Below, one piece after another: positions 831 to 41,478 of a stretch of 42,302 bases of DNA. The position numbers and the translations under genes were made by a program. Location: positions 1-42,302 of IMG/VR virus record IMGVR_UViG_3300043446_001706. One strand, given 5' to 3'. This DNA is from a virus. Below the pieces are notes generated by a model. That model was not told where the DNA came from, did not search any database, and worked only from the letters and a program-made list of their open reading frames with translations. Numbering within the stretch: position 1 is the stretch's first letter; each line of letters opens with the position of its first letter.

Positions 831-3800
831 ATGGCTACGAGTAACAATCCTTTGACTCGTAATGTTCCTGCTCGCGCTGTTATTCGTGGTAATAAGTTAG
901 TTCCTTCGTTTTCTGTTCAGGTTGCTAATAGGCCGAATGCGATTGTTGTTGGAAATAAACTTGTTAATGTTGCGGATGTTAAGCAGCCGAAATATACGTT
1001 TGGTGAGGCGATGGGGCTGGCTAAGTATGGTTATGCTGGTCTTTATGGTCGTTCTAAGACGAAGAAAACCGTTGGTCTTATGGGTGAGAATTGGCAACAG
1101 TTGTATGCGTTGTCAAAGTATAGGCGTGGTCGGAATGTTCCAGAGTTTTCGTTGTTTGATCGTACTCCTAAAGAAGTATTACTTGATATTTCTGCTGCTA
1201 CACAATTAATTCCGGGTAAGCCACAATATAATTCTCTTAATCAGTTGTATACTGATTTTGCTGATAAGTATGGTGCGGATGCTAGTGGGTTTGTTAAACG
1301 GTATGGTGCTATGCCTTCTGTTGAGGGCAAGTATGGCGTATTGTTTGATATTAATAATCGTAAGATTCGTAGTGATGATGTTCGTGGAACATACCAGAAT
1401 AGTCTTGCTAAGACTATGATTCAGGCTGGTAAGGCTTTGTCTGCAGATAATATGCCGGATACTGATAAGGCTATTGGTATTGAGTTGATTGCTATGGGTC
1501 AGGATGCTCGGCTTGCTTCTTCTAGGTCTAAGCCTAATAATGAGAAGATTAAGGCGCTTGAGGATCAGTTTGGTTTGTTGGAGCAGCGTTATTCGCCTCA
1601 GGTTCAGGCTGCTGTGAGTGAGGCTACGGGTATTAGTGGTGATGCGCCGTCGTATTCTAAGACTGCGACTAGTGCTGCATTATCCTTATTGGCTGGTCCT
1701 ATTGGTGCTGTTGTTGGTAATACTACTAGTGGTAATGATTTGACTAATCGTGCTCTTGATTATATGAGTGGTTTGTCTGAGCATGATATTCTTAAGGGTA
1801 AGAAGGTTTGGTGGACTGGTTCTGATAAGCCTGAGGGTGCTTCGTGGGATTCTCGTGGTTTGCTTGGTATGTGGATGAACTGGAATAAGGGGTTGGCTCG
1901 GTTTGGTCTTGGTTTGCCTGCTGGTGTGTTTGCTGCTGGTGGTGAGGCGCGGTTGGCTGGTGAAGAGTCTATTAAGGCTCCTAGGCAGGCTGCGGCTGGT
2001 ATTATTAGTTCTGCGCTTGCTGTTGGTACGCTTGGTGCTGTGGATCAGGATAAGGCTAAGAAGGCTATTGAGAGTGTTATTGGTCGGGAACAACGCGATT
2101 GGGGTGATGGTGTTGATTTTCAGATTGGTGATGCTATGTGGGCTGATTATGCTAAACGGTATTATGATCCTTTTGCGTATCAGGTTGATGAGAATGGTAA
2201 TTTTATTCTTGATGCTGAGAATAAGAGGAAGTTTCAGGGTTTTTGGTCTGGTGTAACTAATCAGGATAATTATGATGCTATGGGTCAGGCTATTGCTTAT
2301 GATCCTTTGGCGTATACGTTGGATGCGTTGGATGTTGCTCCTGCTATTGGTTTTGCGGCTAAGTCTGCTAGTGTTGCTAGTATTGCTGCTCGTGTGCCTC
2401 GTTATGGTGGTAAGTTGGGGATTACTCGTGCGGATATTGTTGCGATTGAGGAGGCTTCTAAGCGGGTTAGTGTGGCTGAGAAGGCAGTTGAGGCTATTCC
2501 TACGATTCAGCGTGAGTCGGCTGAGAGTATTATTCGTAAGTTGGATGAGAATCCTGAGTTGGCTGATGTTCTTGATGAGGATCAGATTCTTGAGGCTGGT
2601 AGGATTCTTGCTCCTGTTGAGGAAGTTAGGGCGGCTAAGTTTGAGTTGGAGACTTTGCAGCGTAAGGTTGATTCTGCTCCTAGTCCTCGTAATTTTCGTA
2701 AGATTCTTCGTGCTGCTATTAATGGTGATGCTGAGAGTATTCGTCGTTTTGATGAGTGGAAGGCTCAGGGTCTTGCGTTTGATGGTATTGAGAATAAGTG
2801 GACGGTTCGTGCTAGTGCGTTGTTTGAGCCGCGTAGTAAGGTGTTAGAGAAGCCTGAGAGTGTTCTTGAGGGGTCTGATACTGCTATTATTCGTTTGCCT
2901 GCTAGTCCTATTGTAAGGGGCTTAAAAGAGGGCTGGTATTGGGTTGGTCGTAAGACTGAGGCTATGGCTGCTAAGGAGTTGGCTAAGCCTGAGACTGGTC
3001 GTGCTAAGGCTGCTGTGCTTAGTAAGTGGATTGATATGCCTCGTTTTGGTTATCGTTGGTCGTATACTCGTGCTATTAAGAATGAGGCTATTTATGATTG
3101 GGGCGATAATGCTAGTGAGTTGTATCGTCAGGGTCGTATTTTGGAGATTGATGGTGCTACGAGTATTAGTGCGCCTATGCGTCAGGCTATTGAGGCTGAG
3201 ATTTTTGGTGGGGATGGTCTTATTGGGCCTGCTAGTGCTCCACAGATTCAGCGTCAAGCGTTGCAGGATAAGTTGCGTTCGCTTGCTCGTGATACGAATG
3301 GTAGGGTTCTTCCTGCGTTGCGTAATGATGAGGCTTTGTATACTAAGAAGTTGAATGATCTTATGGATCGTGAGTTGGCTCAAGTTGATACTAAGTTGGC
3401 TGAGGCTGCGTTTGATGAGGCTTGGGAATCGGGTCGTCAGGATCTTAAGGCTCGTATTGCTGATCCGGCTTATAAGGCTGGTGATGTTGAGTTGGATGCT
3501 GCTATGGATTTGTATCGTAGGCTTATTCGTCAGGATGAGGCTATTCGGCATCGTCTTGTGCATGAGGATATGACTCCGACTACGCTTAATCATTTGAAGC
3601 AATTGTATGCTGAGGCTATGAATGGTTTGCGTTTGACTCCTGATCGTTTGTTTGGGAAGCGTGGTCGTTTGAAGAAGTATACTAAGAGTGTGTTGCGGCC
3701 TAATAATGCGCTTGCTATGTATCTTGGTAGGCTTGTTAATGTTGATGATGCTGATGAGATTATTGCTGCTGCTCAGGCTGGGGATCGTATTGGTACTGTG

Positions 3801-6488
3801 TTTGATGGGTTAGAGCCGAATATTAGGAAGGTTCGTGAGGACCAACTTGTTAATGCGGTTCGTGTTCTTGTTAATGATAATGCTGGTATTTTTCGTGATG
3901 GTTTGGGTGGTGCTGGTGAGATTGGTCGTCCGGTGCTTATTCTTGCTAAGGAGCAGACTGCTGGTGCGGGGTTTGTGCAGTTTCATATTCCACGGTTGCG
4001 GCATACGCTTGATAATGGGCGTGTGATTAATGGTAAGTTAGTGGATGAGGCTGAGGTGTTTACGCTTCCTAAGGAGTTCTTTGTTCGTACTAAAAAGGGT
4101 CCTAAGGTTGAGGATGCTACTACTGGTACTAAGTTGCTTGAGGCTGGTTCGTTGAATGCTATGGCTGATGTGTATCCGAATGCTCGGTTTTATTCTGAGA
4201 AGGTTGCGGAGACTGGTCAGCAGGGCATTCGTATGAATGAGAAGATGGTTAAGACTGAGAGTGTGATTGCTAATAGTGCGTTGCGTGAGCATAGTTTGGC
4301 TCAGGTTGTGCGTAGTCAGTATAATTATTTTGTGTCTCGTGTTGAGCGTGATTTGGCTACGCTTGCTGAGTCTCAGGCTGTGCTTATTCCGGCTAGTCAG
4401 GTTGCTGGTCGTGATCCTGTTGTGTCTGGTTATCGTGTTCTTGATAATGTGCGTACGTTTGATAATCTTGCTGATGCTCGTGATTTTGCTAGGCAGCGTG
4501 GGGTTCTTAACGAGTTTGAGCGTACTGTAGAATTATATGATGCTGGTTTGCTTGAGGATGTTTCGTCTACGCTTGATGTTCCTGCTGGTATGGGTGTTCG
4601 TACTATGCCGGATGGTTCTACTGAGTTTATTGTTCGTGGTGGAGTGGAGGATTGGGCGCCTTATGCTATTAATGAGAGTTTGGAACAACATTCTACGCTT
4701 GCTGCTTATCGTGATGTTATGTATTCTGATCCTGTTGACATTCCCGATCATGGGTTTGTTCTTGCTGTTCCTAATCAGGTTGATCGTCAGTTAAGTGTGC
4801 TTGCTATTGAGGGTGATGATTTTGCTACTCGCTTGTTGTCGAATCCTATGCTTAAGGGTTCTACGAATATCTTTAAGTGGTGGGTGCTGAATTTTAATCC
4901 GAAGTTTATTTCTAATAATGTGCTTGGTGGGTTGACGATGATGATGATTCATAATCCGTCGTCTGCTCCTAAGATTCTTATGCGTACGGCTCAGGCTATT
5001 GCTCGTAAGAATGGTGATACTCGTATGAGTAATATTGTGCGAGAGTCTGATGCTGTTAATCGTCAGTTGCAGTACGAGTTTAATCATAATGCGTATCGTA
5101 AGGATGCGAATTTCCGTGATTCGATGCCTGATTCTATTCGTGATTTGTCGAATAAGCATATGTGGTTTAAGAAGTATATTCAGAATTTTGGTTATACTAC
5201 GATTAGTGCGTTTGAAGAGTTTATTCGTAGGAATGTGGCTGTTGATTTTCTGCGGCAGGATCCTACGTTTAATGCGTTTATGCTTGGTAGTGAGGTTAAG
5301 GATTATATTCGTCGTGGTGTGGATTGGGATGGTAATGTGCGTAAGGGGGATGATGCGATTACGCCGTTTGAGGCGGCTGTGGATCTTCTTCTTGATCGTA
5401 ATTCGCCGTATTTTAATGCGGAGTTGAAGCATCGTATGCGTTATTCTACGAATACTGTGTCTGGTAATTATCATCGTTTTAGTGCTAGTGAGCAATTGTT
5501 GCGTAATTTCTTGATGCCGTTTTATGCTTGGCAGCGTCATTCTGTGACGTATACGTATCGGCTCGCTGTGGATAAGCCTATTACGACGAATGTGTTGTAT
5601 AATGTTGGTCAGTATGGTTATGTGCAGGCTAGTAATAGTGGTGTGCCTGATTATCTTATGATGACTGTTCCTCTTCCTGATACTATTAAGGAGATGTTTG
5701 GTATTGAGGATGAGGATTTTCGTATTGATATGAATGCGTTGTCACCGTTTGCTACTACTGGTGATATGGCTAGTGCTGCTACTCGTTTGTTGACGGGTAC
5801 TGATCTTGGGGCTAGTGTGTTTGAGTTTACTAACCCTTATGTTAATCAGATTATTAAGGATACTCTTGGTGTTGATCCGCGTACTGGTAAGTTTGATTTT
5901 ACTGGTGAGCAGTCTGGTAAGGGTTTCTTTAAGGCGTTGTATGATACTGCTACTGGTATTGGTAAGGGTTCTTATCTTGGTCGTGCTAAGGGTTTGTATG
6001 ATGCTGTTGAGAATACGTATGAGCAGGATGCTCTTAGTAATAAGTATTATGCTATTGATAATGCGGCTGATATTCTTAAGAATTATGAGGCTGGTGAGAC
6101 TTTTAGTGATTGGCGTTTGAGTGTTCCTGAGATGCGTAAGACTGAGGATCTTAGGGGTAATCGTACTGCTGGTATTCTTGCTGGTTTGGGTATTAGTACG
6201 TATAAGGTTAATCTTGATGCGTTGGATGAGAAGCAGCGTGGCGAGGTTGTTGGTGCGTATGTGTTGAATAAGGTGAATGAGTCTCAGTTGGCTGAGCAGT
6301 CACAGTCTCGGCTTAATGGTGTGCAAGAGTGGCAGCGTAGGCGCGATTATGTGTATCAGGTTTGGTTGCCTACTGCTGAGGCTCAGGGCTTGTCAGAAGA
6401 GCAGATTAGGCTTGTGCTTATGAAGATTGAGGATGAGAAGCCTAAGAATAAGAAGTCACAGAAACTATTAGAGATGATGGGAGGATAA
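831..6488 (+). CDS. very large virion protein, putative internal/ejection protein (1885 aa)
   Basis: The start has a clear ribosome binding site (TTTGGAGGTGTGTA before ATG). This is the longest gene in the window. The N-terminal third alternates Gly/Ala-rich hydrophobic stretches (around residues 275-300 and 360-405) with charged segments. The middle is long and helical. Around residues 1365-1580 there is a compact aromatic, basic region (LNFNPKFISNN, LRNFLMPFYAWQRH) resembling LPD38-type domains of large polyvalent proteins carried by phages and mobile elements. I see no obvious lysozyme, transglycosylase or protease active site. In T7-like phages the giant last structural protein (gp16) is stored in the head and ejected into the cell. 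Size and position suggest the same here, but this is an inference. Confidence 0.8.
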   Translation: MATSNNPLTRNVPARAVIRGNKLVPSFSVQVANRPNAIVVGNKLVNVADVKQPKYTFGEAMGLAKYGYAGLYGRSKTKKTVGLMGENWQQLYALSKYRRGRNVPEFSLFDRTPKEVLLDISAATQLIPGKPQYNSLNQLYTDFADKYGADASGFVKRYGAMPSVEGKYGVLFDINNRKIRSDDVRGTYQNSLAKTMIQAGKALSADNMPDTDKAIGIELIAMGQDARLASSRSKPNNEKIKALEDQFGLLEQRYSPQVQAAVSEATGISGDAPSYSKTATSAALSLLAGPIGAVVGNTTSGNDLTNRALDYMSGLSEHDILKGKKVWWTGSDKPEGASWDSRGLLGMWMNWNKGLARFGLGLPAGVFAAGGEARLAGEESIKAPRQAAAGIISSALAVGTLGAVDQDKAKKAIESVIGREQRDWGDGVDFQIGDAMWADYAKRYYDPFAYQVDENGNFILDAENKRKFQGFWSGVTNQDNYDAMGQAIAYDPLAYTLDALDVAPAIGFAAKSASVASIAARVPRYGGKLGITRADIVAIEEASKRVSVAEKAVEAIPTIQRESAESIIRKLDENPELADVLDEDQILEAGRILAPVEEVRAAKFELETLQRKVDSAPSPRNFRKILRAAINGDAESIRRFDEWKAQGLAFDGIENKWTVRASALFEPRSKVLEKPESVLEGSDTAIIRLPASPIVRGLKEGWYWVGRKTEAMAAKELAKPETGRAKAAVLSKWIDMPRFGYRWSYTRAIKNEAIYDWGDNASELYRQGRILEIDGATSISAPMRQAIEAEIFGGDGLIGPASAPQIQRQALQDKLRSLARDTNGRVLPALRNDEALYTKKLNDLMDRELAQVDTKLAEAAFDEAWESGRQDLKARIADPAYKAGDVELDAAMDLYRRLIRQDEAIRHRLVHEDMTPTTLNHLKQLYAEAMNGLRLTPDRLFGKRGRLKKYTKSVLRPNNALAMYLGRLVNVDDADEIIAAAQAGDRIGTVFDGLEPNIRKVREDQLVNAVRVLVNDNAGIFRDGLGGAGEIGRPVLILAKEQTAGAGFVQFHIPRLRHTLDNGRVINGKLVDEAEVFTLPKEFFVRTKKGPKVEDATTGTKLLEAGSLNAMADVYPNARFYSEKVAETGQQGIRMNEKMVKTESVIANSALREHSLAQVVRSQYNYFVSRVERDLATLAESQAVLIPASQVAGRDPVVSGYRVLDNVRTFDNLADARDFARQRGVLNEFERTVELYDAGLLEDVSSTLDVPAGMGVRTMPDGSTEFIVRGGVEDWAPYAINESLEQHSTLAAYRDVMYSDPVDIPDHGFVLAVPNQVDRQLSVLAIEGDDFATRLLSNPMLKGSTNIFKWWVLNFNPKFISNNVLGGLTMMMIHNPSSAPKILMRTAQAIARKNGDTRMSNIVRESDAVNRQLQYEFNHNAYRKDANFRDSMPDSIRDLSNKHMWFKKYIQNFGYTTISAFEEFIRRNVAVDFLRQDPTFNAFMLGSEVKDYIRRGVDWDGNVRKGDDAITPFEAAVDLLLDRNSPYFNAELKHRMRYSTNTVSGNYHRFSASEQLLRNFLMPFYAWQRHSVTYTYRLAVDKPITTNVLYNVGQYGYVQASNSGVPDYLMMTVPLPDTIKEMFGIEDEDFRIDMNALSPFATTGDMASAATRLLTGTDLGASVFEFTNPYVNQIIKDTLGVDPRTGKFDFTGEQSGKGFFKALYDTATGIGKGSYLGRAKGLYDAVENTYEQDALSNKYYAIDNAADILKNYEAGETFSDWRLSVPEMRKTEDLRGNRTAGILAGLGISTYKVNLDALDEKQRGEVVGAYVLNKVNESQLAEQSQSRLNGVQEWQRRRDYVYQVWLPTAEAQGLSEEQIRLVLMKIEDEKPKNKKSQKLLEMMGG

Positions 6489-14152: not shown

Positions 14153-14887
14153 CTACTCCCAAACCCGAACGAATCCGATTACATCACGAACATTACGATC
14201 ACGATACATTACAGCACCACCATTAGAATCATTAGTGATACTAGTGTTACCTTCAATCGTCTTAAACCAACCATCCTTCACAGGAGGATCAACAACTAGA
14301 CCAACATGATTAGCAACACCATCCTGCTTCCAAGAGAAGAGAACAATATCACCAGCCTGTACCTTATCCTTCGTGATAAGATTCAGACCATTATCTTGTT
14401 GGCGAGCATCAGCAAGCAGGAAAGGACAATACGCATAACGTACCCCCTTCTTAAAATGCTTAGCATTAGCCTGAACATAACAATACGTTACGAACATTGC
14501 ACACCAAGGACCAATGATCCCATACCAATTAGAGAACATAACCTTATTACTATTCGGAGGATTCTCCTTCACACCAATAAACTGACGAGCAACCTCTAGT
14601 GCAGTATCACGAAGCGGACGCTTATCCATACGCTTCTTAGCGCGTTGCCGCATCAACATAGTAGGCTTACGATACGTCAAGAATGCTTGCAAACCAGAAT
14701 CATAAGTACGATCCACATTCGCATCACGATACCCTAGACGATACTTAGCCGCACTCGTAGCACGAGCAGTCTGCTCATCATACACACCACTCTTACCAAC
14801 CGTAAGACCAAACGCCTTAAGATTCTTCTGTGCAGTCTTAACATCATCACCCTTCATAAAGGGAGTAGTCAAACGCAACTTCCTCAT
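14153..14887 (-). CDS. endolysin with peptidoglycan-binding and CHAP domains (244 aa)
   Basis: Residues about 8-70 form a peptidoglycan-binding-type repeat (GDDVKTAQKNL, GVYDEQTARA, then a second shorter copy). After a basic linker comes a CHAP amidase/endopeptidase domain with catalytic Cys in GPWCAMF (129), His in ANHVGLV (194) and the TIEGNTS motif. It has no signal peptide, so release should depend on a holin. The gene sits inside the DNA-metabolism arm, as gene 3.5 does in T7, and not next to the holin-like gene at 6877-7077. Wall cleavage by the CHAP domain is family knowledge. Confidence 0.9.
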   Translation of the reverse strand: MRKLRLTTPFMKGDDVKTAQKNLKAFGLTVGKSGVYDEQTARATSAAKYRLGYRDANVDRTYDSGLQAFLTYRKPTMLMRQRAKKRMDKRPLRDTALEVARQFIGVKENPPNSNKVMFSNWYGIIGPWCAMFVTYCYVQANAKHFKKGVRYAYCPFLLADARQQDNGLNLITKDKVQAGDIVLFSWKQDGVANHVGLVVDPPVKDGWFKTIEGNTSITNDSNGGAVMYRDRNVRDVIGFVRVWE

Positions 14888-15120
14888 ACATAACTCCTAA
14901 CTGTATTAATTGCTCGTTGTTCCTCAATATAAATCAACCGCTCAATATACCATTGAGCCTTACGAAGATCCTCAATACCATTCTTATAACGATACCGAGA
15001 CACATACTTTAGTACATTACCCTGATGATAATCAAGTCCCAAACCCTCAATAGCAGTAATAACTTCCATATCACCTTGAGTATAATGCTTCGGACTATTG
15101 ACAGGATCATCAAGCGACAT
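14884..15120 (-). CDS. DUF3310 protein (78 aa)
   Basis: Starts with VNSPKHYTQGDMEVI and continues with GNVLKYVSRYRYKNGIEDLRKAQWYIERL, the full signature of the phage DUF3310 family. These small proteins lie next to replication genes in many phages. A nucleotide-kinase-like role has been suggested by annotation but is not established. The start overlaps the HNH gene end, and the stop overlaps the endolysin start by four bases, so it is part of a tightly packed operon. Confidence 0.88.
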   Translation of the reverse strand: MSLDDPVNSPKHYTQGDMEVITAIEGLGLDYHQGNVLKYVSRYRYKNGIEDLRKAQWYIERLIYIEEQRAINTVRSYV

Positions 15121-15484
15121 TATTTAGTTCCTTATGGATCTGCCTATGACAAGGACGACACACCGGAACACACTTATCAATCTCATTCTGCAAGGACGTA
15201 GCAGACCTATGATAAATAGCAGTAGAAATATTAATCTCCTTCTCCTTAGGATCAAGATGGTGAAGATCAATAAGCGACGGGTGAAGCAACTTACCACAAC
15301 AATGACAAGGCTTATACTTTGCCGCCGCTACAATGCCACGATTAACTGTAGCCTGTACGTCCGTCTTAGCACGACGACAATCACGACACAAACTCTCCAC
15401 GCCATACCTACCCTTCTTATCCTTATAATACTGACTCGTATGCTTAACTTCCTTACAATGAGTACACTTCTTATAATTATCCAT
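15110..15484 (-). CDS. HNH endonuclease (124 aa)
   Basis: Three Cys-pair zinc sites (CTHCKEVK, CRDCRR, CHCCGK) lead into the HNH core: LIDLHHLDP, then a variable helix, CVPVCRPCHRQIH. The ATG at 15484 is preceded by AAGGAG and overlaps the end of the polymerase C-terminal gene. Such free-standing HNH enzymes are usually homing endonucleases that cut an unoccupied allele and spread themselves with flanking DNA. Its place directly downstream of a broken polymerase gene makes it the obvious candidate for causing, or once having caused, the split. Confidence 0.87.
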   Translation of the reverse strand: MDNYKKCTHCKEVKHTSQYYKDKKGRYGVESLCRDCRRAKTDVQATVNRGIVAAAKYKPCHCCGKLLHPSLIDLHHLDPKEKEINISTAIYHRSATSLQNEIDKCVPVCRPCHRQIHKELNNVA

Positions 15485-16217
15485 TATACGGCTCCTTATC
15501 TGCCCAGTTAGTATAACTAATTTCACAATCTGTTTCTATTCTAACGAACTCTTCTACAGTATTATTCCCCATAAGTGTTGGAATCTGATTAACTAGTGTA
15601 ACGATTTCGTTACGATCAGCATCTAAGATCAACTCGTCATGCACGATATTTACAATGTGTGTAGCATAATTTGCATATAGATACTTGTCTACTCGTACTA
15701 CAGCATCCCGCATTAGATCCGCTGCTGACCCCTGAATAAGAGCATTCAACGCCTTATGGGACTCTAATACGTGAAGCCTACGACCATACAAACTCTGGAT
15801 ATAACCACGCATATCCAAGGTTTCTGCGATACTTTGGTTTAATAGTTTGATTCCCGGCCTTGTATCATGATACGCAGCAAGCAATCGTTTAGCCTCCTTA
15901 TAGTTTACTCCTAATTGTCGCATGATTGTAGGAGTGCCACCACCATAGATGATACTAAAGTTTAGTGTCTTACCCACTTGCCGCTGCTCGTCTGTGATGC
16001 TGTCAGTAGCGTATAGTCCTTTGGCGGTAACAGCATGAGGATCTGATCCATTGTTAATCTCGTTCGCCAACGAATGGTCGTTGATTGCCGCTGCCAAGTA
16101 GTATGCGAGCAGCCTGACTTCGATGGCTTTGTAGTCGAAAAATAGGAATGCATCAAGTTTGGGTAGAAACGCTCGTTTGACATCCTTTTGACTCCTTGGA
16201 ATATTCTGTACGTTCAT
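15477..16217 (-). CDS. polA: family A DNA polymerase, C-terminal piece (palm and fingers, 246 aa)
   Basis: Begins with MNVQNIPRS, which in intact family A polymerases lies inside the polymerase domain just after the TGR-L/M-SS motif. It carries motif A (FFDYKAIEVRLLA, Asp 28), motif B or O-helix (RQVGKTLNFSIIYGG, Lys 83, Tyr 91) and motif C (IVHDELILD, residues 193-195), so all catalytic residues for nucleotide addition are here. AAGGAG eight bases before the ATG lies in the end of the glycosyltransferase gene, whose stop overlaps the start as ATGA. Activity would require assembly with the separately made N-terminal piece (16978-17919). Confidence 0.93.
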   Translation of the reverse strand: MNVQNIPRSQKDVKRAFLPKLDAFLFFDYKAIEVRLLAYYLAAAINDHSLANEINNGSDPHAVTAKGLYATDSITDEQRQVGKTLNFSIIYGGGTPTIMRQLGVNYKEAKRLLAAYHDTRPGIKLLNQSIAETLDMRGYIQSLYGRRLHVLESHKALNALIQGSAADLMRDAVVRVDKYLYANYATHIVNIVHDELILDADRNEIVTLVNQIPTLMGNNTVEEFVRIETDCEISYTNWADKEPYNG

Positions 16218-16981
16218 GCAAACCGCTCCTTAATCTGCTTTTCATACATACTAGAGATAATTGCTACTCGTTCTTGAATCTCAGCATTATGAACTCTCTG
16301 AGCCGTATTAGGACTAATATACTGCTTATAGAGCAACTTATCAATATGCTTTGCCTTTGTATTCAGTATAGTCCTAATCATAAACTCGTAATCATCAGCG
16401 ACTCGTAGACTAGGATCATGCCCATTCAGCATACGGTATACGCTTGATCGCCAAGCGCGAACATGATTCGGAGCACTAACAATATGACTCATTGTAATCT
16501 CATTAAGTTCTGGTGCTCGCATAACCATCACTTCATGCTCCTTATCATAATATTCTGACCCATACCCAAACGCCCAACCATCAGGATAACGACACGACTC
16601 CCCTTGCTCATTAATCTCACACCAATTAGAATACACGAATCCAACGTCAATGTCAAGGAACGCATCATGAATCTCATCAAGAGCATCAGAAGTAAGTTCA
16701 TCATCATGATCCAATTCAACAATAATAGTACCATTACTAATCATACTAGCCCACCGCTTTACCTCGCCAATACGACCAGATGGAACATGACTACGAAACA
16801 TACTAATCTTATACCGCTCATCAGAACAAAATCCGTATACTTGATTCCAAGCATTATTAGTATGCGAATCGTCCCAAACAATCCATTCCCAATTCGTATA
16901 TGTCTGTTGTTTGAGACTATTCCAAGTACGCGCCAACACAATGGGATCAGTCTCATAAATAGGAGTAATAACACTAATCAT
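16214..16981 (-). CDS. GT-A glycosyltransferase family 2 protein inserted in the polymerase gene (255 aa)
   Basis: Starts ISVITPIYETDPIVLARTW with the WEWIVWDD strand, the classic nucleotide-sugar-binding start of GT2 enzymes. A DxD-type metal motif is in ELDHDDEL (91-94) and an acidic catalytic motif in VADDYEF (about 195-200). It has no membrane segment and appears complete. GGGAG nine bases upstream lies in the end of the polymerase N-terminal piece. Both gene borders overlap their neighbours as ATGA. Possible targets are modified DNA bases, virion proteins or host surface glycans; none can be chosen from sequence. Its place inside a replication gene is the odd part. Confidence 0.88.
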   Translation of the reverse strand: MISVITPIYETDPIVLARTWNSLKQQTYTNWEWIVWDDSHTNNAWNQVYGFCSDERYKISMFRSHVPSGRIGEVKRWASMISNGTIIVELDHDDELTSDALDEIHDAFLDIDVGFVYSNWCEINEQGESCRYPDGWAFGYGSEYYDKEHEVMVMRAPELNEITMSHIVSAPNHVRAWRSSVYRMLNGHDPSLRVADDYEFMIRTILNTKAKHIDKLLYKQYISPNTAQRVHNAEIQERVAIISSMYEKQIKERFA

Positions 16982-17919
16982 GCTTCAGCACTCCCACTAC
17001 TCATACGACCCGTTCTAGTACCATGCTGACGAAAATTAGGATGCAACACACCATGCTTAGACTCATCATACATAGCATCAAAATACGTAGTCTTAATCTT
17101 ATTTGCTTCTCGCAAATCTACGATGAGCGTAGCCAACTCATCATCCACGCTGGCAAGTGTCGCCTTATCCGTCTTTGAGACTGACACTCCGCGCTCTTCC
17201 AAGGCTGCGAGGACTTGTTGCGGCGACTGAGGGTTGAAGTCTGGCCCGGATAACTCTGCAATTTTCGCTTTCGTCCAATAAATCTTATCACCATACTCCC
17301 TTCGTTTTTGTGTAATATACTCACGATCTACGTGCATACCTTGTGCCTCAATACGAAGCAAGGCTAGCGTCATCTCCTTTTCCATCTCATAAAGAGGATA
17401 TGACTCTTTAGGCAAACGATTAATTAGATACTCATACAAGCGAAGTGTAAACTCTGCATCCTTCTTAGCGTAAGGCGCTAGAATATCATAAGGAATAGGC
17501 TCATACCCATCTTCCTTCTTCAACTTAGCCTTACGCCGATATACCTTTAGTACCTCATCCTCATCCGTAGTCTCATTAAGATATACACGAGCAAGATGTT
17601 TTAGACTAGTAGACTGATGCTCATCAATAAGGTGTGCCATCGCTTGCGTATCCTCAAACTTGTCATAGAATACCCGACCATTGATACCAAGACGAATCAA
17701 TTTCTGCATGTCAAACTTGGCATTGTGCATGATGATCTTATCAGCGTTGGCTAGTGCCTTAAAGACTTCTGCAATAGCATCATCCCATTCACCAATACTC
17801 ATAATACGACGATCATAGACAATGCTATACGCATCAGTCGCCATGCTAATCATGAAGGCTTCATCATACCAGCCAACGCCGGTAGTTTCAGTATCAATCG
17901 CCACTAGATCCAAGACCAT
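16978..17919 (-). CDS. polA: family A DNA polymerase, N-terminal piece (3'-5' exonuclease and thumb, 313 aa)
   Basis: The proofreading domain is intact by motif: Exo I in AIDTETTG (Asp 9, Glu 11), Exo II in MHNAKFD (Asp 70), Exo III in PYAKKDAEFT (Tyr 150, Asp 154). A thumb region follows with PQSPQQVLAAL and LHPNFRQHGT. The protein stops right after TGRMSSGSAEA, in the middle of the polymerase domain and just before the NVQNIP motif, which is encoded 760 bases away after the glycosyltransferase. The start overlaps the dUTPase end and has AGAGGGG upstream. It could work as a separate exonuclease subunit or reassemble with the C-terminal piece. Confidence 0.93.
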   Translation of the reverse strand: MVLDLVAIDTETTGVGWYDEAFMISMATDAYSIVYDRRIMSIGEWDDAIAEVFKALANADKIIMHNAKFDMQKLIRLGINGRVFYDKFEDTQAMAHLIDEHQSTSLKHLARVYLNETTDEDEVLKVYRRKAKLKKEDGYEPIPYDILAPYAKKDAEFTLRLYEYLINRLPKESYPLYEMEKEMTLALLRIEAQGMHVDREYITQKRREYGDKIYWTKAKIAELSGPDFNPQSPQQVLAALEERGVSVSKTDKATLASVDDELATLIVDLREANKIKTTYFDAMYDESKHGVLHPNFRQHGTRTGRMSSGSAEA

Positions 17920-18319
17920 TATCCCCTCTAAGAGAATACCAAACCATATTATCTGCTCGCAACAAGTGAATATCCCACAATGGGATAATCATCAATTGTG
18001 CAATACGATCACCCTTCTTAACACGATACGGCTTATGATTAAGATTACCAAGAATAACTTTGATTTCACCATGATAACCAGAATCAATAATGCCCGGAGC
18101 ATTTAGAACGAATACACCATGATTAGCCGCTAGACCACTACGACTACAGATCATACCAACGAAGTCTTGTGGAATGTGCATACTAATTCCCGTAGAGACT
18201 ACATCATAATTATCAATGGTTTTATTCTCTACAGCATACAAGTCAAAGCAAGCATCATGCTTGTATGCTTTGGTTGGCTCTTGTGCCAACTCATGCTTAT
18301 GCTTGTAATATACTAGCAT
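17894..18319 (-). CDS. dut: dUTPase (141 aa)
   Basis: All five trimeric dUTPase motifs are present in order: DACFDLYA, CSRSGLAANHG, APGIIDSGYHGEI with VIL, GDRIAQLMI, and the C-terminal GDNGLGSSG. The enzyme hydrolyses dUTP to dUMP and pyrophosphate, keeping uracil out of phage DNA and feeding thymidylate synthesis. Length is normal for the family. The start overlaps the preceding stop (TAATG), and the end overlaps the polymerase start by 26 bases. Confidence 0.93.
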   Translation of the reverse strand: MLVYYKHKHELAQEPTKAYKHDACFDLYAVENKTIDNYDVVSTGISMHIPQDFVGMICSRSGLAANHGVFVLNAPGIIDSGYHGEIKVILGNLNHKPYRVKKGDRIAQLMIIPLWDIHLLRADNMVWYSLRGDNGLGSSGD

Positions 18320-18555
18320 TAGTCCATCCGATACGAACGATCATGCTGACAATCAGGACAATCACAAATACAATCAACCGTATCAAGTCCAACCTTCTGG
18401 TTAAACTTATCTAGAAAACTAGTATCATCCAACTCCATCTGCATCTCATCAAGACGCATCATTACATCATCAGCCATCTCCATAATAAGACGAATCTGAC
18501 GAGTAATCACCGCCAACTGCTGCTGATAAAACGTACTATCAACCTCAACATACAT
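18319..18555 (-). CDS. helical protein with C-terminal Cys cluster (78 aa)
   Basis: Residues 8-50 are a charged, Met-rich amphipathic helix region. The tail holds four cysteines within 10 residues (CICDCPDC) that could bind zinc or an iron-sulphur cluster. Start and stop overlap both neighbours as TAATG, which places it firmly in the operon between the Rad52-like protein and dUTPase. A partner or regulator of recombination or nucleotide metabolism is possible. No family recognised. Confidence 0.75.
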   Translation of the reverse strand: MYVEVDSTFYQQQLAVITRQIRLIMEMADDVMMRLDEMQMELDDTSFLDKFNQKVGLDTVDCICDCPDCQHDRSYRMD

Positions 18556-19190
18556 TATACAATCCCCTTCTTAGACATGGACTCACGAATACTATCAACA
18601 TCAAGATCCTTAATATCAAGAACCTCCATCATCTGATCCTTATCCGGCATCGAACCCGGATCCAACTCCAACACTCGCTGAGTATACGATACAACCAACT
18701 GCTTGAGTGCAATATCATCTGTCGCAGCACGACGCTGCAACTCAACATAATCACGCTCAGCAGCATCCCACAAATAGAGTGCAATACCATATTGGTGACA
18801 AGCCTTCTTAAGTGCCTCTGCCTGAGCACTCTTCACAGCAGTATCAGGATCAAAATTAACATTAGCACCAATACCATCACGACTAATCATAGCCTTCTGA
18901 GTAGTAAAGTATGCGTCATCATCATCCGGACCAGCACTAACAACACCAATATCCGAAAGAATAATAGTAAGAGTGCCCTGCACAACAGCCATAAACTGTG
19001 GCTTACCACTCTTCGTAGGAGAAGCATCACGAATTTCCCACGAATTAATCTGCCACGCCCAAGCATGACCAAGCACATCATTAAGACGATTAATATAACC
19101 ATCAATGGCTACATAATCCTGACCACTCTGATTCTTCTTTACTAGAGTAGGATGAAACTTCTCAGTAAGTTCTTTAGGAATCATACTCAT
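18555..19190 (-). CDS. Rad52-like single-strand annealing protein (211 aa)
   Basis: The first half follows the phage Rad52/Rad22 annealing-protein pattern: YVAIDGYINRLNDVLG with a following W-x-W, a long beta region, then DPDTAVKSAQAEALKKACHQYGIALYLW, the most recognisable segment of the family. The C-terminal part is an acidic helical tail. These proteins bind single strands and anneal homologous ends in recombination-dependent repair and replication. AGGAGG seven bases before the ATG at 19190 fixes the start. Together with the Cas4/RecB-like nuclease (19795-20637) and SSB it can form a complete recombination set. Confidence 0.83.
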   Translation of the reverse strand: MSMIPKELTEKFHPTLVKKNQSGQDYVAIDGYINRLNDVLGHAWAWQINSWEIRDASPTKSGKPQFMAVVQGTLTIILSDIGVVSAGPDDDDAYFTTQKAMISRDGIGANVNFDPDTAVKSAQAEALKKACHQYGIALYLWDAAERDYVELQRRAATDDIALKQLVVSYTQRVLELDPGSMPDKDQMMEVLDIKDLDVDSIRESMSKKGIV

Positions 19191-19201
19191 ATTCTGTCCT
19201 C

Positions 19202-19639
19202 CTAGACAGGCCAATAATAATTGTATTCCCCAACAACGTCAGGGTAGAACTGATTATACCATACCGGATCCTTAAATACAAGGGCTGACTTGTGTGAATC
19301 ATGCACACGATTATCGCCAAGCCAATGTGGATAACATACATACTGTGGCCATTCTGGCAAATAACCAAAGTGTTCCTTATACACATCAAGGGTCTTTTCC
19401 CAACAAGTATCCTTATACCCACGAGCCTTCCACTCACGAACAGTATGCATCTGATACATCACAAGAGCATCCTCATAACCACGCCACATACGAGTAGCAG
19501 GATGATTAACCCAACCCTTACTAAGACCAGCAAGAGCCTTCATAATCTGCAAAGTCTCTACACGCTGCTTACCTAGACGTTGACGATCAAGGACACGAAC
19601 ACTATTTGCAAATGAAATTTCTGGTACGAACGTTTGCAT
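19202..19639 (-). CDS. MSMEG_6728-like conserved protein, possible DNA-lesion enzyme (145 aa)
   Basis: MQTFVPEISFANSVRVLD, RLGKQRVETLQI, NHPATRMWRGYEDAL and the late PHWLGD with DSHKSALVFKDP match a compact family found in actinobacteria and their phages. It is sometimes annotated as pyrimidine-dimer DNA glycosylase. The conserved Arg, Lys, His and Trp residues support an enzymatic role, but the lesion activity is annotation lore and not shown here. It is encoded just before the annealing protein, in keeping with repair. Confidence 0.7.
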   Translation of the reverse strand: MQTFVPEISFANSVRVLDRQRLGKQRVETLQIMKALAGLSKGWVNHPATRMWRGYEDALVMYQMHTVREWKARGYKDTCWEKTLDVYKEHFGYLPEWPQYVCYPHWLGDNRVHDSHKSALVFKDPVWYNQFYPDVVGEYNYYWPV

Positions 19640-23395: not shown

Positions 23396-23663
23396 AGGTA
23401 TAATCTCCTTCATCATCATTAGGATAATCGTCAGGATAATCATAATCCATCGTCCAATCATGCGACGATGCGTAATCCTCAGGCTCCAACTCAGTATGCC
23501 AACCCGGATACTGGTACTCTGGCGGATCACTTAGCACGAACGTATCATCCAATAGACTAGCATCATCCCGTAGGTCATCTACAACCTTAGGGAACCAAGA
23601 ATGTGGGCCAACCATACCATTATCCTTCCACTCCATATACTTAGCAATATCAGACACTCGCAT
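23388..23663 (-). CDS. acidic, Tyr/Asp-rich protein (91 aa)
   Basis: The start at 23663 has GGAGG six bases upstream and overlaps the end of the ArdC-like gene. The N-terminus (MRVSDIAKYMEWKDNG) looks folded, while the last 30 residues are mainly Asp, Glu, Tyr and Pro (DYDYPDDYPNDDEGDYTYD). Such tails are typical of DNA-mimic or nucleic-acid-competing proteins. Its coupling to an antirestriction gene suggests a defence-evasion role, which is an inference. Confidence 0.7.
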   Translation of the reverse strand: MRVSDIAKYMEWKDNGMVGPHSWFPKVVDDLRDDASLLDDTFVLSDPPEYQYPGWHTELEPEDYASSHDWTMDYDYPDDYPNDDEGDYTYD

Positions 23664-24540
23664 AAACATCCTCCATCATGTAGTCTACAGCCTTCTCAGC
23701 CATGTTAGCAGCACTCACGAGTAGACTAGGCTCATCCTTACAACGCTGCGCCCAACCCTTCAGGTATGCAGCGGACTGCTCCATATCAGCAGGAATATCC
23801 AACGCACCACACATCATAGCAGCACCAAACTCTGCAACAAGTTCCTCCTTTGCATAAGAATCAGTACCAAAACCAGCCTTCTCCAGACGATTCAGCCGGG
23901 TATCAGCACCGGTAGCATGAACAATCTCATGAGCCAACGTCTGAGCATACCAAGACGAACGATGAAACATATCACGATCAGGCATACGAATCTGATCCTC
24001 ACTAGGAATATAACAAGCCTTGTTAGAACCATGTTCCAGAGACAGGTTAGCATCGCACCAATCATACATGACGCTGATACCAGCATAATCCTCATCACCA
24101 TCAGGCTGAACCGGAGCCTCAACCTCTACATCATACTCAGGCAGACCATCAATCTGCGAAGCATGAAAAACCTTATAGAATCGCATATTCCACCAAGTAT
24201 AAGTCTCAACCTCACCTTTATCATTCTCCTTCTCACTCACAGCAGGAGCATTATAGACAACGATAGTAGACTTACTACCCTTACGAACCTTAGCACCAAG
24301 ATCCTTCACATTACCAAACGTAAACCAACGAGGATCATTACTACCAAAACTCTCTTGCATCCAGCCGAGGTAGATACGGTTAAAACCGTTGTAAAGACGA
24401 CTACTAAAACCATTCTGCGGCTGGTAAGCCTTGCTTACAACCCACGGCTGCTGCCAAATAGCAACACCCTGCTCCATCTGCTCAATCAGACCAGCAGTCA
24501 CTTGCTGGTAGAGTTCCTTTTTCTTATCAGCATCCATCAT
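23650..24540 (-). CDS. ArdC-like antirestriction protein (296 aa)
   Basis: Two domains are visible. The N-terminal ArdC/DUF1738-type domain (QQVTAGLIEQMEQGVAIWQQPW, NGFNRIYLGW, VRKGSKSTIVVY) is known in the family to bind single-stranded DNA. The C-terminal part is a zinc-metallopeptidase-like domain with HExxH in LAHEIVHATG (about 204-208) and EELVAEFGAAM as the third ligand region. ArdC proteins protect incoming DNA against restriction. GGAAAGG lies just upstream of ATG 24540. The transcript leader contains the hairpin at 24581-24614. Confidence 0.85.
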   Translation of the reverse strand: MMDADKKKELYQQVTAGLIEQMEQGVAIWQQPWVVSKAYQPQNGFSSRLYNGFNRIYLGWMQESFGSNDPRWFTFGNVKDLGAKVRKGSKSTIVVYNAPAVSEKENDKGEVETYTWWNMRFYKVFHASQIDGLPEYDVEVEAPVQPDGDEDYAGISVMYDWCDANLSLEHGSNKACYIPSEDQIRMPDRDMFHRSSWYAQTLAHEIVHATGADTRLNRLEKAGFGTDSYAKEELVAEFGAAMMCGALDIPADMEQSAAYLKGWAQRCKDEPSLLVSAANMAEKAVDYMMEDVYASV

Positions 24541-24580
24541 ATTTTCCTTTCCGGTTTCCGGCAATCTCTATTCTCTCTAA

Positions 24581-40092: not shown

Positions 40093-41478
40093 ATGTCGGT
40101 TAGTTATACTACAAATTATGGTTTTCCTTATCCTAATGGGGATGATAGTCTGTCTCTTGTTGCTGAGCGTATTCAGCAGTTGGCTGAATATATTGATTCT
40201 ACGTATAGTTTGATGGATGTGAATCTTCTTGATTTTAGTTTGCCTGAGGGTCCTCAGGGCGCTCAGGGCAGTCAGGGTGCTCAAGGTTCTACGGGTGCTC
40301 AGGGTAGTCAAGGAGCGCAGGGAGCACAGGGCGCTACGGGTAGTCAGGGCGCTACTGGGCCACAGGGTTCGCAAGGTAGTCAGGGTCCTCAGGGTACACA
40401 GGGGCCACAGGGTACGCAAGGTCCACAGGGTAGTCAGGGTTCTACTGGTCCTCAGGGATCTACTGGGGCGCAGGGTGCTACTGGTTCTCAGGGGGCTACT
40501 GGTGCTCAAGGCGCTACTGGATCTCAGGGTGCTACAGGTGCTCAGGGGCCGCAGGGAGATGTTGGCGCTCAAGGTCCTCAGGGTAATACTGGTGCTCAGG
40601 GTAGTCAAGGTAGTCAAGGGCCTCAGGGTGCGACTGGATCTCAAGGTCCTCAGGGCGATATTGGTCCTCAGGGTGCACAAGGAGCGACTGGTGCTCAGGG
40701 ACCACAGGGCACTCAAGGCCCTCAAGGAGATATTGGTCCTCAAGGGGCAACTGGTCCACAAGGTAGTCAAGGCGCTCAGGGGGTTACAGGATCACAAGGG
40801 CCTCAAGGGGACGTTGGTCCTCAGGGCGCTCAAGGCGCTACTGGTAGTCAAGGTTCTCAAGGACCTCAAGGGGCACAAGGCGCACAAGGCGCACAAGGCG
40901 ACACTACCCCAACAGGCAGCGTTATACCATATGCAGGACCAACTGCTCCTACGGGTTGGCTTTTATGTGATGGTAGTGCTATTTCTAAAAGCACTTATGC
41001 GGCTTTGTATGCTGTTATTGGTGATACTTATAATGTTACTGCTCCGGGAACGGGTAATTTTCGTGTTCCTGATCTTACTGGTCGCGCTGTATTTGGTAAA
41101 GAATCTGTTGCAACGCGAATTACAAATGCTGTTTCTGGTATTACTGGTTCTACTCTTGGTTCTTATGGTGGCAATCAGAATATGCACCAGCATACTCATA
41201 CTCAAGATGCTCATACGCATACAACTAGTGGAGATGGTACTCATAATCATGATGTTGCTGCAAGAGATTATGCTTGGGAGGGTGTTTCTGGTAGGGATTA
41301 TGTAGCCGCAGGACGATCTAACTCTGGTCTTAGTCCTACATCTGGCGGGTTAGGGTATGTAACAGGGGGACATAATCATACTCTTAGTTCTACAACGGCT
41401 ACTAATCAGAATACGGGATCAGGCGCATCCCAAAATATGCCGCCAGCAATTATTCTTAATTATATCATTAAAACCTAA
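40093..41478 (+). CDS. collagen-like tail fibre with C-terminal collar domain (461 aa)
   Basis: An N-terminal 50-residue part ([19 protein letters not shown], then a helix) should attach to the virion. Residues 53 to about 269 are Gly-x-y triplets (GPQGAQGSQ type), which in phage fibres form a rigid trimeric collagen-like stalk. The C-terminal 190 residues are a tail-collar receptor domain: [40 protein letters not shown], His-rich loops ([13 protein letters not shown]), ending in [16 protein letters not shown]. The same end occurs in the fibre at 26975-27748. Confidence 0.92.
40249..40899 (+). repeat. collagen-like Gly-x-y coding repeat (about 72 triplets)
   Basis: Nine-base units encode [15 protein letters not shown] and GDV/GDI triplets. 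Synonymous codons are mixed (GGT, GGC, GGA, GGG; CAG, CAA), so DNA identity between units is reduced although the peptide is highly repetitive. Confidence 0.9.

Follow-up and report, generated by a model that had tools for sequence, protein, structure and literature searches.

A phage family A DNA polymerase encoded in two pieces around a slot for exchangeable genes

In a lineage of uncultured viruses of bacteria, we found the family A DNA polymerase divided between two genes, with a slot of variable content between them. In the 42,302-nucleotide stretch of viral DNA analyzed here (the window), this slot holds an intact GT2-type glycosyltransferase (GT) gene. It is likely that a heterodimeric family A polymerase replicates the lineage and that its old, fixed break serves as a slot for exchanged cargo, the GT probably acting on a tail fibre.

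Architecture of the split polymerase locus

The N-terminal piece, PolA-N (positions 16978-17919, minus strand), is a protein of 313 amino acids that comprises the 3'-5' exonuclease, the thumb and, from the palm, the TGRMSS motif. It ends in TGRMSSGSAEA, five residues past TGRMSS. The C-terminal piece, PolA-C (15477-16217, minus strand, 246 amino acids), begins with MNVQNIPRS and contains the palm and fingers; its motifs A, B and C read DYKAIE, RQVGKTLNFSIIYGG and HDE, respectively. The slot between them is occupied by its passenger, a GT of 255 amino acids (16214-16981, minus strand). PolA-N and PolA-C are separate open reading frames (ORFs), each with its own stop and start, and at either junction with the GT the upstream stop codon overlaps the downstream start codon by 4 bp. 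An ATGA at 16978-16981 (minus strand; junction GCATGATTAGT) links the stop of PolA-N to the start of the GT, and another at 16214-16217 (minus strand; junction GCATGAACGTA) links the stop of the GT to the start of PolA-C.

Jointly, the two pieces display the domain coverage, motifs and folds of a family A DNA polymerase. PolA-N matches PF01612 and positions 2-123 of the 381 positions of PF00476, and PolA-C matches positions 127-380; PF00476 is thus tiled as one domain, its first third in PolA-N and the other two thirds in PolA-C. In an alignment with Klenow, PolA-N ends at TGRLSS (chain residue 349) and PolA-C starts at NLQNIP (352), which places the break inside the palm and not between domains. 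Relative to both Klenow and PF00476, nothing of substance is missing between the two pieces. The three exonuclease motifs are intact in PolA-N (D9, E11, D70, Y150, D154), as are the polymerase motifs A, B and C in PolA-C (D27, E32, R78, K82, F86, Y90 and H192-D193-E194). Single-chain AlphaFold2 models (pLDDT 93.2 for PolA-N and 92.5 for PolA-C) match the exonuclease/thumb part and the palm/fingers part, respectively, of solved PolA structures. The GT contains a PF00535 domain and the acidic metal-binding motif of GT2 enzymes; ITPIYETDP, LDHDDEL and VADDYEF are present in the window, and the VELDHDDE region is invariant. ORF coordinates, motifs and Pfam matches bear out the original prediction of a family A polymerase in two ORFs around an intact GT2 gene, including the exonuclease motifs and terminus it assigned to PolA-N and the start and motifs A, B and C it assigned to PolA-C.

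That prediction came with the check that no independent complete polymerase should exist in the same genome, and none was found with PF00476, PF00136 or PF07733. PF00476 was matched at these two places only in the window record, and the same holds for 18 of 19 records checked; the exception, L093, has PolA-C alone, on a contig that begins about 1.3 kb upstream of it. Searches of seven records, including the window, with PF00136 and PF07733 gave no match, and a PF03175 search of seven records gave none either, but here the positive control was silent as well. An Rfam search of 14500-18500 (E ≤ 1) returned no match, so no group I or group II intron was seen. Intein splicing blocks in frame with the polymerase were likewise not seen. 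The insert is a separate ORF with its own start and stop and with PF00535 only, and the intervening gene of the window is no endonuclease (an HNH endonuclease does sit in the slot of relative L003). The Rfam result, the separate ORF and the sole PF00535 match uphold the claim that the insert is neither intron, intein nor endonuclease.

Conservation of the break and turnover of the slot

Scans of IMG/VR revealed dozens of contigs with the same split arrangement. All close relatives are metagenomic contigs; a whole-genome scan for the host gave two distant matches only, and no close isolate was found by polymerase, terminase or helicase. Elsewhere, the window encodes an 1885-amino-acid ORF without a Pfam match (831-6488), a Rad52-like annealing protein adjoining a pyrimidine dimer DNA glycosylase (18555-19639) and an ArdC-like antirestriction protein with a metallopeptidase domain (23650-24564).

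Both ends of the break were inspected in 36 loci representing 34 different polymerases, and the break was the same in all 36. PolA-N stops five to seven residues past TGRxSS, using TGA, TAG or TAA, and PolA-C starts directly before N[VLFAI]Q, always with a table-11 start codon (18 ATG, 11 GTG, 4 TTG and one each of ATT, ATA and ATC). The rare ATT, ATA or ATC starts, at L003:4875, L092:1615 and L262:5998, could hold the level of PolA-C down. The gene is still split in relatives with 43-52% identity in PolA-C (L092, L094, L257, L258, L262, L263 and L264), whereas the next polymerases, at or below ~39% identity, are single uninterrupted ORFs where checked. The break is therefore old. It is also carried by close relatives without any GT and by GT-less relatives at 43-52% identity. 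We conclude that the break is old, fixed and kept in the lineage, and that the GT is a later, optional passenger.

A GT that broke the polymerase gene, as originally pictured, is not needed to explain the arrangement, and we rejected the GT as the cause of the split, which is present in relatives that lack it. An assembly artefact was rejected as well, the same arrangement recurring in many independent contigs. Other checks that the original prediction proposed gave consistent answers: a continuous frame was looked for in near relatives and not found, intact polymerases appearing only at about 39% identity and below, and independent contigs share the polymerase-GT-polymerase order.

Both pieces evolve under purifying selection, with dN/dS values of 0.05-0.20 in all pairs tested. 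The arginine of the TGR motif is invariant in 51 aligned PolA-N sequences, although PolA-N lacks the catalytic site. At the DNA level, synonymous sites at the break show only a mild rise in conservation, and selection there is therefore weak or absent; the idea of a strongly conserved DNA site for cutting or recombination was rejected on the same observation.

The gap is a slot for interchangeable passengers, whose stop and start codons usually overlap those of their neighbours. Within the near lineage, the slot is empty in L009, L010, L012 and L015, where the PolA-N and PolA-C frames overlap by 4 bp. It contains a small acidic ORF in L001, L028 and L029, and this ORF plus one more in L031. 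The window and many others have the GT alone; elsewhere the GT is accompanied by the small ORF or by more, with an HNH ORF among the slot genes of L003. Unrelated genes occupy the slot in distant members, of which L093 has an RNase H-like ORF upstream of PolA-C. The distance between PolA-N and PolA-C has a standard deviation of 465 bp, compared with 9-138 bp at four neighbouring junctions; two further junctions of the operon vary, but less so, namely C-MazG (with or without HNH) and MazG-PGRP. The original description of the GT as a cargo gene thus holds insofar as it is a passenger and not an intron or intein, but the GT is one of several inserts in a variable slot and not the only one.

Several slot contents deserve description in their own right. 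A family of ~60-amino-acid acidic proteins (WxxYYxSM ... WPVFAxxFDxAM; for example, L001:7813-8004 and L029:7831-8004) sits immediately ahead of PolA-C wherever it occurs; for one member no match was found among phage isolates, and for three members none among PHROGs. The small slot ORFs are mostly without a PHROG match. The slot of L030 (6067-7009) contains a short ORF motif (EAFAAIRRAAEVAR ... IRAAIGSEK) in repeated form, and the motif also occurs in L003 and L031. In L094, a tyrosine recombinase gene (2862-3677, minus strand) runs antisense in the interval between PolA-N and PolA-C, with a SLOG-like ORF beside it.

The presence of the GT requires eight changes on the polymerase tree (gains and losses counted alike), and at least four of these changes are forced by well-supported branches. 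The slot GTs cluster in a single clade, distinct from the sampled GTs that phages encode elsewhere in their genomes. Within this clade, the branching disagrees with the polymerase tree, pairing L003 with L023, L030 with L008 and L032 with L089; slot contents have therefore been swapped between phages. Between L013 and L014, the dS of the GT is 0.04, versus 0.34 and 0.57 for the flanking polymerase halves. L001 and L003 share 96.5% base identity at the end of PolA-N, yet L003 has a GT insert and L001 has none, making the pair convenient for comparing the locus with the glycosyltransferase and without it. The GT itself is under purifying selection (dN/dS 0.07-0.16; 0.35 in one very close pair). 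Recombination in the flanking polymerase sequences would be the simplest route of exchange.

What the glycosyltransferase may act on, and what may move it

Relatives of the GT are encoded in more than 500 viral stretches, and in other phages their frequent neighbours are a 2OG-Fe(II) oxygenase or a collagen-like tail fibre. The oxygenase gene precedes the GT homologue in three such phages (L181:3356-4765, L192:3363-4765 and L206:1660-3248). This suggests that oxygenase and GT homologue form a hydroxylate-then-glycosylate pair for collagen-like fibres. The window also encodes a collagen-like tail fibre (40093-41478, plus strand), the putative substrate of its GT. Among near-complete records, a collagen-like ORF is present in all six with the GT (the window, L003, L004, L007, L024 and L030) and in one of four without it (L015, the exception, but not L009, L028 or L029); Fisher's test over this small set of ten near-lineage records gives p = 0.033 with kinship ignored. 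As a lead, the GT may glycosylate the collagen-like tail fibre, and it is probably unrelated to DNA copying.

Two other readings of the GT and its slot bear on this point. The GT sits inside a replication operon, and DNA glycosylation has been suggested for glycosyltransferases of freshwater actinophages (PMC10202952), so it might glycosylate modified bases of the phage genome and be coupled to the polymerase for that purpose. We give this little credence: many close relatives lack the GT and have no other copy in their records, its homologues adjoin tail fibres and 2OG-Fe(II) oxygenases, and a scan of part of the ORFs showed no base-hydroxymethylating enzyme. The other reading concerns movement. 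An HNH endonuclease-like ORF (15110-15526, minus strand), present only in some relatives, overlaps the 3' end of PolA-C, and such ORFs directly follow PolA-C in the window and in L001-L007, with one inside the L003 slot. Polymerase genes are frequent sites of homing endonucleases (PMC2988022), and the HNH protein might move slot and GT by collaborative homing. This, too, is unlikely, for the two genes are not tied: L001 has the HNH ORF without a GT, and L008 and many others have a GT without the HNH ORF. As the presence of the two is uncorrelated, HNH as the sole mover of the GT was rejected.

Assembly of the polymerase and comparison with known systems

The favoured reading is a heterodimer. 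PolA-N and PolA-C would be translated from one operon as separate polypeptides, PolA-N contributing the exonuclease, the thumb and the arginine of TGRxSS, and PolA-C the palm, the fingers and the catalytic carboxylates. Their association would rebuild the palm and yield an active enzyme. The TGR arginine corresponds to Klenow R668, a residue that contacts the primer. Joined by stop/start overlaps, passengers would disturb neither polymerase piece, and the GT could be exchanged between related phages, most simply through recombination in the flanking polymerase sequences. The heterodimer is the likely state because neither piece is plausible as a complete polymerase and both are constrained.

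The alternatives either rejoin the chain or leave the pieces apart. Group I introns and inteins are common in phage polymerase genes (an intron was raised for MEP401, PMC10580990, and MIJ3 has a split intein, PMC6892783), and a -1 shift would join the pieces in L009, L010, L012 and L015, with their 4-bp frame overlap. It is nonetheless highly improbable that an intron, intein-like element or frameshift site in the interval yields a single final chain. Rfam had no match in 14500-18500, slot contents are unrelated between members, and in the window a single chain would take two shifts through a complete 255-amino-acid GT. Moreover, the break retains a stop codon and a start codon, whichever of three stops and six starts is used, which speaks for separate proteins and against splicing; their retention in 36 loci and the purifying selection on both pieces support the two separate polypeptides originally proposed. 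Alternatively, PolA-N could be a free exonuclease and PolA-C a minimal polymerase that form no stable complex. Some phages do have one gene for the exonuclease and another for the polymerase, and PHROG families named 'DNA polymerase exonuclease subunit' match PolA-N weakly. However, the break lies within the palm and not at a domain border, and in 36 of 36 loci PolA-N retains the thumb and runs on to the TGR motif near its very end, making this arrangement rather improbable.

We return to the heterodimer, for which a more tentative extension is conceivable: the break could be a dedicated exchange dock, its passengers stop/start-coupled, swapped via the flanks and tied to the expression of an essential enzyme, and the ~60-amino-acid acidic ORF could be a bridging third subunit. 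If so, the lineage would keep a swappable cargo dock inside its replicative polymerase. Under the heterodimer reading, a replicative polymerase cut through the palm can survive as a pair of chains for long evolutionary times, the gene of an essential enzyme, once broken, can become a lasting site for varied cargo, and a natural two-piece enzyme would directly test how family A polymerases assemble.

The closest known case is that of MEP401 and MEP402, Methylophilales (OM43) phages whose split family A polymerase is kept in most related metagenomic genomes (PMC10580990). As here, the ORF for the exonuclease side precedes the second polymerase ORF, and another ORF separates the two. In contrast to our lineage, their insert is one small ORF, their sequences are only distantly related, and MEP401 is broken ~20 residues later, past NLQN but ahead of motif A. 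Because of this offset and distance, the two splits appear to be independent events at nearly the same place. The replicative polymerase is also two chains (gene 43A/43B) in Aeromonas phages 25 and 44RR, and a precedent for the heterodimer is the split gp43 of phage 25, whose chains purify together and show activity (Petrov et al. 2010, reviewed in PMC2988022). Unlike ours, these are family B enzymes, separated by a seg-type homing endonuclease or an untranslated spacer and not by a cargo gene. In Pseudomonas phage MIJ3, too, the polymerase is encoded by two ORFs that flank another gene (PMC6892783), but this enzyme belongs to family B and carries intein blocks that would rejoin the protein; no such blocks were seen here. 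The nrdA gene of Aeromonas phage Aeh1, split by mobE and still functional (PMC2988022), is likewise an essential phage enzyme in two pieces; it is, however, a ribonucleotide reductase, and its insert is itself the mobile endonuclease. The words 'split' and 'intron' are absent from a survey of marine family A polymerases (PMC6302109), and further searches of the open-access literature added nothing relevant; an earlier description of the lineage elsewhere is possible. Split phage polymerases are already known from Aeromonas phage 25 and MEP401. What is new is the age and universality of the break within a lineage, its changing cargo and the presence of a full enzyme gene as that cargo.
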